Shown here piece after piece: positions 10,071 through 12,397 of a stretch of 32,624 nucleotides of DNA. Location: positions 1 to 32,624 of IMG/VR virus record IMGVR_UViG_3300037327_000103; one strand, given 5' to 3'. How positions within the stretch are numbered: the first letter of the stretch is position 1; each line of letters starts with the position of its first letter. Position numbers and translations under genes: made by a program. This DNA is from a virus. A model generated the notes under the pieces. The model saw only the letters and a program-made list of their open reading frames with translations, searched no databases and was not told where the DNA came from.

Positions 10071-11405
10071 ATGACGCTGAGCTTCGCCCCGGAGCGGATC
10101 GAGCACTGGCCGCTCGCGCGCCTGCAGCCTTACGCGAAGAACGCGAAGCAGCACGGGCCCGACCAGGTCGCGAAGCTCGCTGCCAGCATGGCCGAGTTCG
10201 GCTGGACCGTGCCGTGCCTCGTGGGCGAGGACGGCGAGCTGATCGCCGGCCACGGGCGGGTGCTGGCCGCGACGCAACTTGGGCTGACCGAGGCGCCGGT
10301 GATCGTGCTCGGGCACCTGACCGAGGCGCAGCGCCGGGCCTATCGTTTGGCCGACAATAAATTGACCGAACTCGGAACATGGGACGAGGCGCTGCTGTCG
10401 GCGGAACTGAACGAGCTGCTGGCCGACGACTACGACCTGTCGCTGGTCGGCTTTTCCGACGGCGAACTCGACAAGCTGCTGGCCTTCGATACGGACGTGG
10501 GCGGCGGAGAAGAAGGTAGCGCCGGGGGCTCCGTGCCTCCGCTGACCATCCCCGAGCCACCGCGCAATCCGGCCTCGCGGACAGGCGACCTGTGGATCCT
10601 CGGCGATCATCGGCTGCTCTGCGGGGACAGCACGAACCACGAAGATGTCCGCCGTCTGATGAACGGCGAGCGCGCGGTGCTGTTTGCGACCGACCCTCCG
10701 TATCTCGTCGACTACGACGGATCGAACCACCCGACGCGGAACAAGGACTGGAGCCAGTCCTACGGCGTCACTTGGGACGACAGCAGCCAAGGGGCCGAAC
10801 TCTACGACGGGTTCATAGCGGCCGCCGTCGCCGAGGCGATCACCGAGGACGCCGCCTGGTACTGCTGGCACGCCTCGCGCCGGCAGGCGATGCTGGAGGC
10901 CTGCTGGGAGAAAGCCGGCGCCTTCGTCCACCAGCAGATCATCTGGGTGAAGGACCGCGGGGTTCTCACCCGGTCGCATTACCTCTGGAAGCACGAGCCC
11001 TGCTTCATGGGCTGGCGCCGACCGAACCGCCCGCCGAAGGTTGCCGAGCAGACGTTGCCCTCGACTTGGGAGATGCCGTCCTTCGCCAAGGACGACCGGC
11101 CCGACCACCCGACGCCGAAACCGCTCGACGCTTTCGGGATCCCGATGCGCCAGCACGTCGCCCGTGGAGGGCTCTGCTACGAGCCGTTCGCTGGCTCGGG
11201 CTCGCAGATCATGGCGGGTGAGGCCAACGGCCGGCGCGTCTTCGCAATGGAGATCAGCCCGGCTTACGTCGATGTCGCCGTAGAGCGCTGGCAGGCCGAG
11301 ACCGGCAGGGACGCGATCCTCGATGGCGACGGTCGGACCTTCGCGCAGGTGAAAGCCGAGCGGCTGGGCGAGACCACGGCAGCAGGCGCCGATGCCGCTG
11401 CCTGA
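10071..11405 (+). CDS. ParB-domain/DNA adenine-or-N4-cytosine methyltransferase fusion
   Basis: A 444-residue fusion. Residues 1-130 are a ParB/sulfiredoxin-like domain (LARLQPYAKNAKQH, then ELIAGHGRVLAA). Residues about 180-425 are an amino-methyltransferase with DPPY (about 208-211, catalytic motif IV) before YEPFAGSGS (about 369-377, AdoMet-binding motif I), the beta-class order. EISPAYVDVAVERW near the end is the usual last motif. The enzyme should methylate adenine N6 or cytosine N4 in a short target; the target cannot be read from sequence. Its stop shares one base with the next start (TGATG), so it is coupled to a second methyltransferase. Anti-restriction protection is the likely benefit. 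Confidence 0.88.
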   Translation: MTLSFAPERIEHWPLARLQPYAKNAKQHGPDQVAKLAASMAEFGWTVPCLVGEDGELIAGHGRVLAATQLGLTEAPVIVLGHLTEAQRRAYRLADNKLTELGTWDEALLSAELNELLADDYDLSLVGFSDGELDKLLAFDTDVGGGEEGSAGGSVPPLTIPEPPRNPASRTGDLWILGDHRLLCGDSTNHEDVRRLMNGERAVLFATDPPYLVDYDGSNHPTRNKDWSQSYGVTWDDSSQGAELYDGFIAAAVAEAITEDAAWYCWHASRRQAMLEACWEKAGAFVHQQIIWVKDRGVLTRSHYLWKHEPCFMGWRRPNRPPKVAEQTLPSTWEMPSFAKDDRPDHPTPKPLDAFGIPMRQHVARGGLCYEPFAGSGSQIMAGEANGRRVFAMEISPAYVDVAVERWQAETGRDAILDGDGRTFAQVKAERLGETTAAGADAAA

Positions 11406-12397
11406 TGGCCGTCTACTACAACGATGCCGACCCCTTGGCCTGCGCATGGCTGCGGGAATTGATCGCGGCCGGGCTGCTGCCGGATGGCGACGTGGACGAG
11501 CGGTCCATCCTCGAAGTGGAGCCCACCGACCTGCGCGGCTTCGCGCAGTGTCATTTCTTCGCCGGAATCGGCGGCTGGCCCTACGCACTACGCCTCGCCG
11601 GCATAGCCGAGAATCTGTCCGTCTGGACCGGCTCGCCGCCCTGCCAGCCATTCAGCCAGGCCGGGCAGCGCAAGGGACAGGACGATGACCGCCATCTCGC
11701 CCCGGCCTTCCTGCGGCTCGTCGCAGCCTGCCGCCCGGAGTTCGTCTTCGGCGAGCAGGTCGCGAGCGCGGCAGTGCTCGGACCAGTTGGCAGCGCGACT
11801 CGCACAGCGGCTGAGGGCCCGGCTGGCTGGGCGTGGTTCGACGCTCTGGCTTCTGACCTGGAAGCGGCATCTTACACCGTCGCGGCGGCCGATCTGCCGG
11901 CTGCGGGCATCGGCGCTCCGCACATCCGCCAGCGGCTGTTCTTCGGCGCCGCCGCCCTGGAGCCGGGCGGGCTGGGCAACGGCCTCAGCGCGGGATCACA
12001 AGGACGGATCGGAATGCCGGGCGGTGCCGATCAACGCGCTACTCGGCCGGCAGGTCTGGCTGGCGGGCTGGCCGACGGCGATGGCGGGCTCGCCCGCGAC
12101 GGCAGCGTACAACGCGGCGGGCAACACGGATGCGAGCCGCAGGACGGTAAAGCTGGTCGACTGGTCGAAGGTGACGACCCCACCGGCGCCGATGCGACGG
12201 ACGGCGTCTGGCGAGATCCGGACTGGCTCCTCTGCCGCGATGGCCGCTGGCGGCCCGTTGAGCCCGGAACATTCCCGCTGGTTGATAGGATATCCGGTCG
12301 CATGGGGCTGCTGCGGGGCTACGGCAATGCGATCGTGCCGCCGCTCGCGGCGGAGTTCGTGACGGCGTTTCTGGAGAGCCTGCCGGAGGGGCTGTGA
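11405..12397 (+). CDS. DNA cytosine-C5 methyltransferase
   Basis: 330 residues with motif I FAGIGG (about 52-57), motif IV GSPPCQPFS (about 76-84, catalytic Cys), GEQV in the motif VI place (usual ENV altered), GAPHIRQRLFF (motif VIII region) and motif X GYGNAIVPP near the C-terminus. The ATG at 11405 overlaps the previous stop. Between about residues 195 and 265 the sequence is Gly/Asp-rich and poorly conserved-looking, the variable target-recognition region. The DNA from 11685 on is also open in another frame that matches a common phage protein type (separate entry). It probably protects phage DNA with the preceding methyltransferase. Confidence 0.85.
   Translation: MAVYYNDADPLACAWLRELIAAGLLPDGDVDERSILEVEPTDLRGFAQCHFFAGIGGWPYALRLAGIAENLSVWTGSPPCQPFSQAGQRKGQDDDRHLAPAFLRLVAACRPEFVFGEQVASAAVLGPVGSATRTAAEGPAGWAWFDALASDLEAASYTVAAADLPAAGIGAPHIRQRLFFGAAALEPGGLGNGLSAGSQGRIGMPGGADQRATRPAGLAGGLADGDGGLARDGSVQRGGQHGCEPQDGKAGRLVEGDDPTGADATDGVWRDPDWLLCRDGRWRPVEPGTFPLVDRISGRMGLLRGYGNAIVPPLAAEFVTAFLESLPEGL
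11685..12362 (+). CDS. alternative-frame ORF nested in the C5 methyltransferase gene
   Basis: 225 codons lie wholly inside the methyltransferase gene in a different frame. The translation is not random-looking. It contains CSDQLAARLAQRL, STLWLLTWKRHLTPSRRPIC, RASALRTSASGC, WPTAMAGSPATAAYNAAGNT and LSPEHSRWLIGYPVAWGCCG. From memory these match the distal part of a widespread phage family annotated as DNA methylase (RRTSxSGxxxWPTP... LNPAHSRWLMGxPxxW). The main frame over the same DNA carries normal C5-methyltransferase motifs, so both frames look conserved. The ORF may be an overlapping gene, a frameshift product or a relic. A weak AAGGGA lies about 10 bp before the ATG. Confidence 0.4.
   Translation: MTAISPRPSCGSSQPAARSSSSASRSRARQCSDQLAARLAQRLRARLAGRGSTLWLLTWKRHLTPSRRPICRLRASALRTSASGCSSAPPPWSRAGWATASARDHKDGSECRAVPINALLGRQVWLAGWPTAMAGSPATAAYNAAGNTDASRRTVKLVDWSKVTTPPAPMRRTASGEIRTGSSAAMAAGGPLSPEHSRWLIGYPVAWGCCGATAMRSCRRSRRSS

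Follow-up and report, generated by a model that had tools for sequence, protein, structure and literature searches.

An entangled gene pair at a phage C5-cytosine methyltransferase locus and its probable role as two parts of one enzyme

Genes and motifs at the locus

The analysis covered virus record IMGVR_UViG_3300037327_000103 as one strand of 32,624 nt, hereafter called the window. The locus described here (GC 0.71) holds the gene for a C5-cytosine methyltransferase (MTase) large subunit, alpha, and a second open reading frame, beta, which lies within it at an offset of +1 (Table 1). The initial annotation of this DNA had described a main frame carrying C5-MTase motifs through GYGNAIVPP and a second frame of 225 codons with four recognizable phrases, and both were recovered. 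The main frame, in which CHFFAGIGGW, PPCQPFS, and GYGNAIVPP were found, matched PF00145 in the profile search (E 4.3e-13) and phrog_363 (E 2.4e-72). The second frame contained LTWKRHLTPSRRPIC, RASALRTSASGC, WPTAMAGSPATAAYNAAG, and SPEHSRWLIGYPVAWG. Its open stretch is limited upstream by a TAG at 11604–11606, and this stop was the same in several close relatives (7 +1-frame stops in codons 66–95 among 20 sequences). The gene 5' of alpha (10071–11405) comprises a ParB-like N-terminal part and an N6/N4 DNA methyltransferase. Its stop overlaps the alpha ATG (TGATGG at 11403–11408), which suggests that the two are translationally coupled.

Table 1. Positions of the two genes and their features in the window
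Feature	Position	Strand	Basis
Alpha gene, 330 aa: large subunit of a C5-cytosine methyltransferase with motifs I–VIII and X	11405..12397	+	ORF, PF00145, phrog_363, AF2, Foldseek
Alpha motif I, CHFFAGIGG	11549..11575	+	Alignments A1/A4/A6
+1 frame, stop-to-stop open stretch, 251 codons	11607..12362	+	ORF scan
Alpha motif IV, PPCQPFS, catalytic Cys80	11636..11656	+	Alignment with M.HhaI
Shine-Dalgarno-like AAGGGA, 7 nt 5' of ATG 11685	11672..11677	+	Sequence
Beta gene: nested +1-frame ORF, 225 aa, probable target-recognition region and motif IX subunit	11685..12362	+	phrog_31772/phrog_1008, stop counts, synonymous constraint, hhalign
Candidate beta start ATG	11685..11687	+	Sole ATG/GTG/TTG between upstream stop and constrained region
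Alpha motif VI, GEQVAS (ENV-type)	11750..11767	+	Alignment
Beta hairpin LTWKRHLTPSRRPICRLRAS; same DNA as alpha between motifs VI and VIII	11853..11912	+	AF2 beta, local pLDDT about 80
Alpha motif VIII region, APHIRQR	11915..11935	+	Alignment
Alpha codons 186–265: linker unstructured in alpha, constrained coding in beta frame	11960..12199	+	AF2, position rates
Beta WPTAMAGSP: WPTP/LPTP repeat of target-recognition region	12069..12095	+	Aligned with LLPTP elements of monomeric MTases
Beta motif IX, LSPEHSRWLIGYPVAW	12258..12305	+	Alignments, hhalign, regex
Alpha motif X, YGNAIVPP	12320..12343	+	Alignment

As alpha unites motifs I, IV (with its Pro-Cys), VI, VIII, and X on one chain, it was counted as a PF00145 protein, although its motif VI reads GEQV, not ENV. 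The alignment with M.HhaI covered alpha motifs IV–VIII. In the single-chain AF2 model, for which the input was limited to sequences of the window and of viral contigs, the pLDDT was mostly >90 over motifs I–VIII and 31–40 for residues 200–260; the disorder spanned residues 195–260 approximately, and a folded helix (residues 312–324) followed motif X. When this model was used in Foldseek, M.HhaI was the best match (E 1.2e-7), and other C5-MTases also matched. The hhalign comparison with monomeric mycobacteriophage MTases aligned alpha over motifs I–VIII only (E 2e-20). The target-recognition domain (TRD) and motif IX of the monomeric members were found in the alpha chain by none of AF2, hhalign, and the motif regex. 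Since alpha had no folded TRD and motif IX lay in the +1 frame, alpha was regarded as the catalytic chain of a C5-MTase and not as a complete monomeric enzyme.

Two homologous loci had an altered alpha frame. In EBPR siphovirus 2 (L005, 201–1400), an insert of approximately 370 residues broke alpha at catalytic motif IV (SCPC / CQPFS); it had matches to Hint, intein-splicing, and LAGLIDADG and is probably an intein placed at the cysteine of the active site. As the insert lies upstream of the beta start, beta was left whole. In Pseudomonas phage PMG1 (L007, 1124–2021), the alpha frame was shifted between its first 35 codons and the remainder, and beta was intact; a frameshift mutation, a sequencing error, or a different mode of expression may account for this.

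Beta matched phrog_31772 (E 5e-25) and phrog_1008 (E 1e-10), whereas no match was found among the Pfam and NCBIfam models. Both families, and phrog_363 as well, carry the label 'DNA methyltransferase', which agrees with the earlier proposal that the second frame represents a phage family labeled DNA methylase. The family consensus at the beta end, GQLNPAHSRWLMGLPxEW, resembles C5 motif IX, which reads LHPRECARVMGYPDSY in M.HhaI. In hhalign, the beta profile was placed on the TRD–motif IX segment of mycobacteriophage MTases encoded in a single frame (95.5%, E 1.4e-8), at a low identity of 9% and with partly low-complexity repeats; much of the argument depends on motif IX. By regex, motif IX in the +1 frame was accompanied by motif X in frame 0 at at least 179 loci, and both motifs lay in the main frame at at least 8 loci, all from the monomeric set; these counts are lower bounds because the regex misses divergent forms of motif IX. 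The AF2 model of beta alone reached a pLDDT of 59 and a pTM of 0.25, and the fold search with this low-confidence single-chain model returned no PDB match. Such a weak model would be expected if beta needed its partner in order to fold, but other causes could also produce it.

Open-frame tests and selection on each frame

The distribution of +1-frame stops was determined in 169 distinct loci. The initial 25 codons of each match, 4,225 codons in all, contained 229 stops, and the 10,804 codons from there to the proposed beta start contained 69. Past the proposed start, 35,317 codons contained 3 stops, and the rate per 100 codons dropped from 0.64 ahead of the site to 0.01 beyond it. All 3 late stops were located in two loci, one from Paraburkholderia fynbosensis (L350) and one from an Arsenophonus endosymbiont (L373). 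Stops were present in alpha as well as in beta at both, which is consistent with decayed prophage copies.

Permutation tests were performed in both directions. In the forward test, the alpha protein was held fixed, its codons were permuted, and +1-frame stops were counted. For the locus in the window alone, P was 0.12 at a GC of 0.71, a value at which chance is not excluded. An open +1 frame was improbable by chance at a GC of 0.50–0.58. For homologues with a GC of 0.50–0.56, P was mostly ≤0.006, with 0.010 and 0.029 for two of them; one homologue with a GC of 0.50 (L071) had 0 +1 stops compared with 7.5 expected. The third frame was without protection from stops in this test. In the reciprocal test, beta was held fixed, and permutation of its synonymous codons led to an expectation of 405 main-frame stops in 81 loci, compared with 0 observed. 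Loci with stops inside the best match had been left out beforehand, which biases this count towards open frames, and the exclusions for alpha stops concerned a few loci only.

The frames also differed in the codon positions at which variation was tolerated, main codon position 1 being position 3 of beta. Among 20 close relatives, the differences at positions 1, 2, and 3 (p1/p2/p3) were 0.07/0.05/0.26 in codons 1–65 (p3 0.257), 0.23/0.06/0.07 in codons 186–225 (p1 0.232, p3 0.065), 0.25/0.13/0.13 in codons 226–265 (p1 0.252), and 0.06/0.02/0.13 in codons 266–300. Over codons 186–265, the identity of alpha was 0.66–0.72, compared with 0.81–0.91 for beta. The p1 rate in this segment equaled the synonymous rate elsewhere; thus, the main demand on alpha there is that its frame be free of stops, whereas the beta protein is conserved. 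Accordingly, codons 186–265 are constrained mainly in the beta frame.

Excess synonymous constraint in the main frame was calculated for 87 divergent loci and amounted to 0.07–0.26 in codons 1–84, 0.5–1.8 in codons 85–305, and 0.29–0.11 after codon 306, with its onset at codons 82–86 and its end at codon 305. The Paenibacillus-type phages (GC 0.47–0.53) served as an independent replicate, in which p3 fell from 0.575 to 0.24 and returned to 0.58 past the beta end. In the monomeric mycobacteriophage MTases, used as a negative control, p3 exceeded p1 and p2 across the TRD, motif IX, and motif X. In the first half of these control genes (L182–L198), the +1 frame was open for 120–200 codons with a recurring YSETxPxxGMxxxGxxxxLPxSxPxT, and p3 variation dipped at codons 111–130. 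It is possible, judging from the sequences, that this stretch is a further overlapping ORF.

With these data, it is nearly certain that the beta frame is a genuine second gene and that the two genes overlap, both being real. The checks proposed in the initial annotation thus ended with database families matching the second frame and codon-level constraint in both frames. That annotation had left overlapping genes, a frameshift pair, and an annotation artefact side by side as options. The first is borne out by the constraint on both frames and the database matches, and the second is not favored. As for the third, the confusion among annotations is real, but it is a consequence of the overlap and not its explanation.

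Probable division of one enzyme between the two products

Alpha and beta are very probably two parts of one C5-methyltransferase, encoded as an entangled gene pair: the segments to which beta could be aligned, the TRD and motif IX, are those missing from alpha. This identity of the second protein goes beyond what had been proposed for the locus. The reading is grounded in both frames being coding and under selection, in the motif content, and in the kinship of beta to the corresponding TRD–motif IX segment of enzymes that are monomeric. Alpha would bring the SAM-binding and catalytic motifs I–VIII and the C-terminal motif X, with an unconstrained linker where the target-recognition domain would be expected, and beta would bring the target-recognition region with its WPTP elements and motif IX. 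Both would be translated from a shared transcript, most likely with the ribosome initiating internally at ATG 11685 for beta, which would then dock on alpha to complete a heterodimeric enzyme. The putative enzyme would methylate a specific sequence in phage DNA, and the methylation would probably guard this DNA from host restriction. A segment that alpha conserves, DWLxCRDGxxRPVEPGTFPL, is unaccounted for by the division into two parts.

An alternative is that beta was overprinted as an independent protein whose function has nothing to do with methylation, such as anti-restriction or nuclease activity. The lack of Pfam, NCBIfam, and PDB matches for beta would agree with this, as would the hidden out-of-frame HNH nuclease known from a phage methylase gene (PMC11855218). 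However, beta aligns to C5-MTase parts that alpha lacks, neither HNH nor any other nuclease family appeared among its Pfam matches, and it overlaps conserved alpha sequence and motifs instead of forming an insertion. Thus, an unrelated function is improbable.

How beta is started bears on a further alternative. Internal initiation was inferred from four features taken together: where constraint sets in, how stops are distributed, the biased codons, and the excess of start codons. At the start site, ATG, GTG, or TTG was present in 84/104 loci (0.81), compared with a mean of 0.55 and a maximum of 0.73 in 200 permutations. The codons used at the site were biased as well, with TTT for Phe in 54/59 (background 0.27), GCT for Ala in 35/44 (background 0.21), and GAT for Asp in 24/30 (background 0.40). 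The AAGGGA upstream of the ATG is no more than suggestive because the Shine-Dalgarno strength at the start site across the family did not exceed that of the codon-permuted null. The RNA near the candidate ATG had no unusual local structure (z = -0.46). Overall, an internal start of beta at 11685 is likely. The annotation of K1ind2 places the beta start further upstream, and some phages may start beta upstream of the equivalent site.

The further alternative is a programmed +1 frameshift near codons 92–94, which would yield a fusion of N-terminal alpha with C-terminal beta beside full-length alpha. Synonymous constraint does set in at codons 82–95, and GGG-TTT-G, a sequence that could slip, is present there in many members, in line with the bias towards TTT. 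However, no conserved slippery sequence was found, the junction differs by clade, and the clade of the locus reads GGA-CAG-GAC-GAT without TTT. There is also no in-frame stop as a stimulator, a fusion made at that site would miss motifs VI–VIII and X, and start codons at the site exceed the null expectation. A frameshift is likewise improbable. That the second frame is a GC-rich by-product, held open by codon bias and given a propagated 'DNA methylase' label, might be thought from the GC of the locus, its own P of 0.12, and nearby antisense ORFs open up to 572 aa, but this is refuted by low-GC homologues conserved and open at a GC of 0.47–0.56, the scarcity of stops, the permutation tests in both directions with an unprotected third frame, the reversed p1/p3 rates, and the synonymous constraint, and its probability is negligible.

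Homologues, implications, and comparison with known systems

The tblastn search with the beta frame yielded 187 phage records, with the matches lying on the same DNA as those of the main frame where inspected. A search with the main frame alone yielded 80 loci, and a beta homologue at the same +1 offset was present in 80/80. The bacterial-genome loci showed the +1 offset in 80/80, and 69/80 were stop-free in both best matches; close relatives sit in Rhodobacteraceae genomes. Phages bearing the pair infect Proteobacteria, Firmicutes, and Bacteroides. In the Bacteroides phage, the overlap was open, and purifying selection on both frames was seen for the Proteobacteria and Firmicutes phages. The E. 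coli phages Bas71 (L174) and Bas80 (L176) share a nearly identical alpha/beta gene, in which the recognition region of beta is short and different, among different gene neighbors; this suggests that the pair has been exchanged between phages.

The entangled pair recurs in hundreds of phages, and databases usually list one half only. Both frames are annotated in K1ind2, PhiXhv-18, and Shelly, the Paenibacillus phage Shelly bearing the note 'g55 internal gene'. The beta frame is annotated in PhiXhv-7, PMG1, R6L, and Tunturi_1, as judged from coordinates, and other public records annotate the main frame only; alpha, beta, or both are listed without a pattern. In PHROG, of which the proteins of the locus are members by profile score, phrog_363 (alpha) and phrog_1008/phrog_31772 (beta) are kept as independent families, whereas at the loci examined they are two frames of one DNA. 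The earlier suggestion that two known protein types are two readings of the same DNA is thereby supported. All 95/95 members of alignment A5 matched phrog_1008 and phrog_31772. A literature search, with subscription literature and REBASE outside its range, found no description of the phage family as a nested pair.

Dual coding finds a strong natural example in this same-strand overlap, which exceeds 200 codons and has purifying selection on both of its frames; each product can be matched with a complementary part of one enzyme. These halves are stored in databases as unrelated 'DNA methyltransferase' families, and a codon-optimized alpha expressed alone would destroy beta and could appear inactive. 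Since the recognition segment is selected in one frame only, phages could swap or diversify specificity through beta, with alpha merely staying open. With codons 186–265 serving mainly beta, the constraint pattern offers a way to test how entangled genes evolve, and the laboratory E. coli phages Bas71 and Bas80 carry variants. The chances are about even that the phages of several host phyla share a C5-MTase class with the catalytic core and the DNA-recognition part in different frames of the same DNA, to which monomeric (Moonbeam) and partly fused forms (L290/L291) are related by frame changes. In L290 and L291 (1501–2430), a single frame joins motifs I–VIII to the LPTP region and motif IX and stops just past motif IX, and motif X (YGNAIV) is read from a different frame that overlaps it.

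The monomeric form is represented by Moonbeam and its relatives, in which motifs I–VIII, LLPTP repeats, RLxxAFPEWMMGWPAGW, and GNGVVPQQ occur in one frame. The phage pair shares the catalytic domain, LPTP elements, motif IX, and motif X with the Moonbeam gp69 family (alignment A7). However, that family is one polypeptide from one frame, with no dual-coding signature in the TRD and motif IX, whereas the pair is split. The ShiLan domain of a mycobacteriophage methylase gene is likewise a second ORF read out of frame within that gene, but it is a hidden HNH endonuclease and an inserted homing element (PMC11855218). Unlike this insertion, beta lies across conserved motifs of alpha, would contribute a portion of the enzyme, and has no HNH match. 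In M.AquI, two subunits likewise divide the motifs of one enzyme, but they are split in order, with motifs I–VIII and part of the variable region on one and the rest with motifs IX–X on the other (PMC3404938). In the phage pair, motif X stays with motifs I–VIII, and the genes overlap.

The closest parallel by description is M.EcoHK31I, which is a two-polypeptide C5-methyltransferase, as is M.EaeI. Lee et al. (1995) reportedly found the small subunit of M.EcoHK31I to be encoded within alpha in a different frame and activity to require the two subunits together. As reported for that enzyme, the phage beta overlaps alpha in another frame, with a +1 offset throughout. M.EcoHK31I, which recognizes YGGCCR, has a large subunit with motifs I–VIII, X, and a predicted TRD and a small subunit with motif IX (PMC3404938). 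The phage alpha similarly carries motifs I–VIII and X, with motif IX on the smaller second polypeptide. Unlike in M.EcoHK31I, it is beta to which the recognition region of the phage pair was mapped, with no structure in the corresponding part of alpha; the pair is also phage-borne, with no restriction enzyme identified adjoining it. Among candidates for M.EcoHK31I itself, Klebsiella aerogenes LR134256 was rejected as phage-like DNA with broken ORFs, and four plasmid methyltransferases were rejected as being annotated as single genes. Since the TRD-like region is in beta and the comparison was one of motif content and gene layout, the phage pair is considered to work like M.EcoHK31I and is not classed as a member. 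Compared with M.EcoHK31I, the phage pair is new in its breadth across host phyla, in the placement of its recognition region in beta, and in the inconsistency of its annotation.
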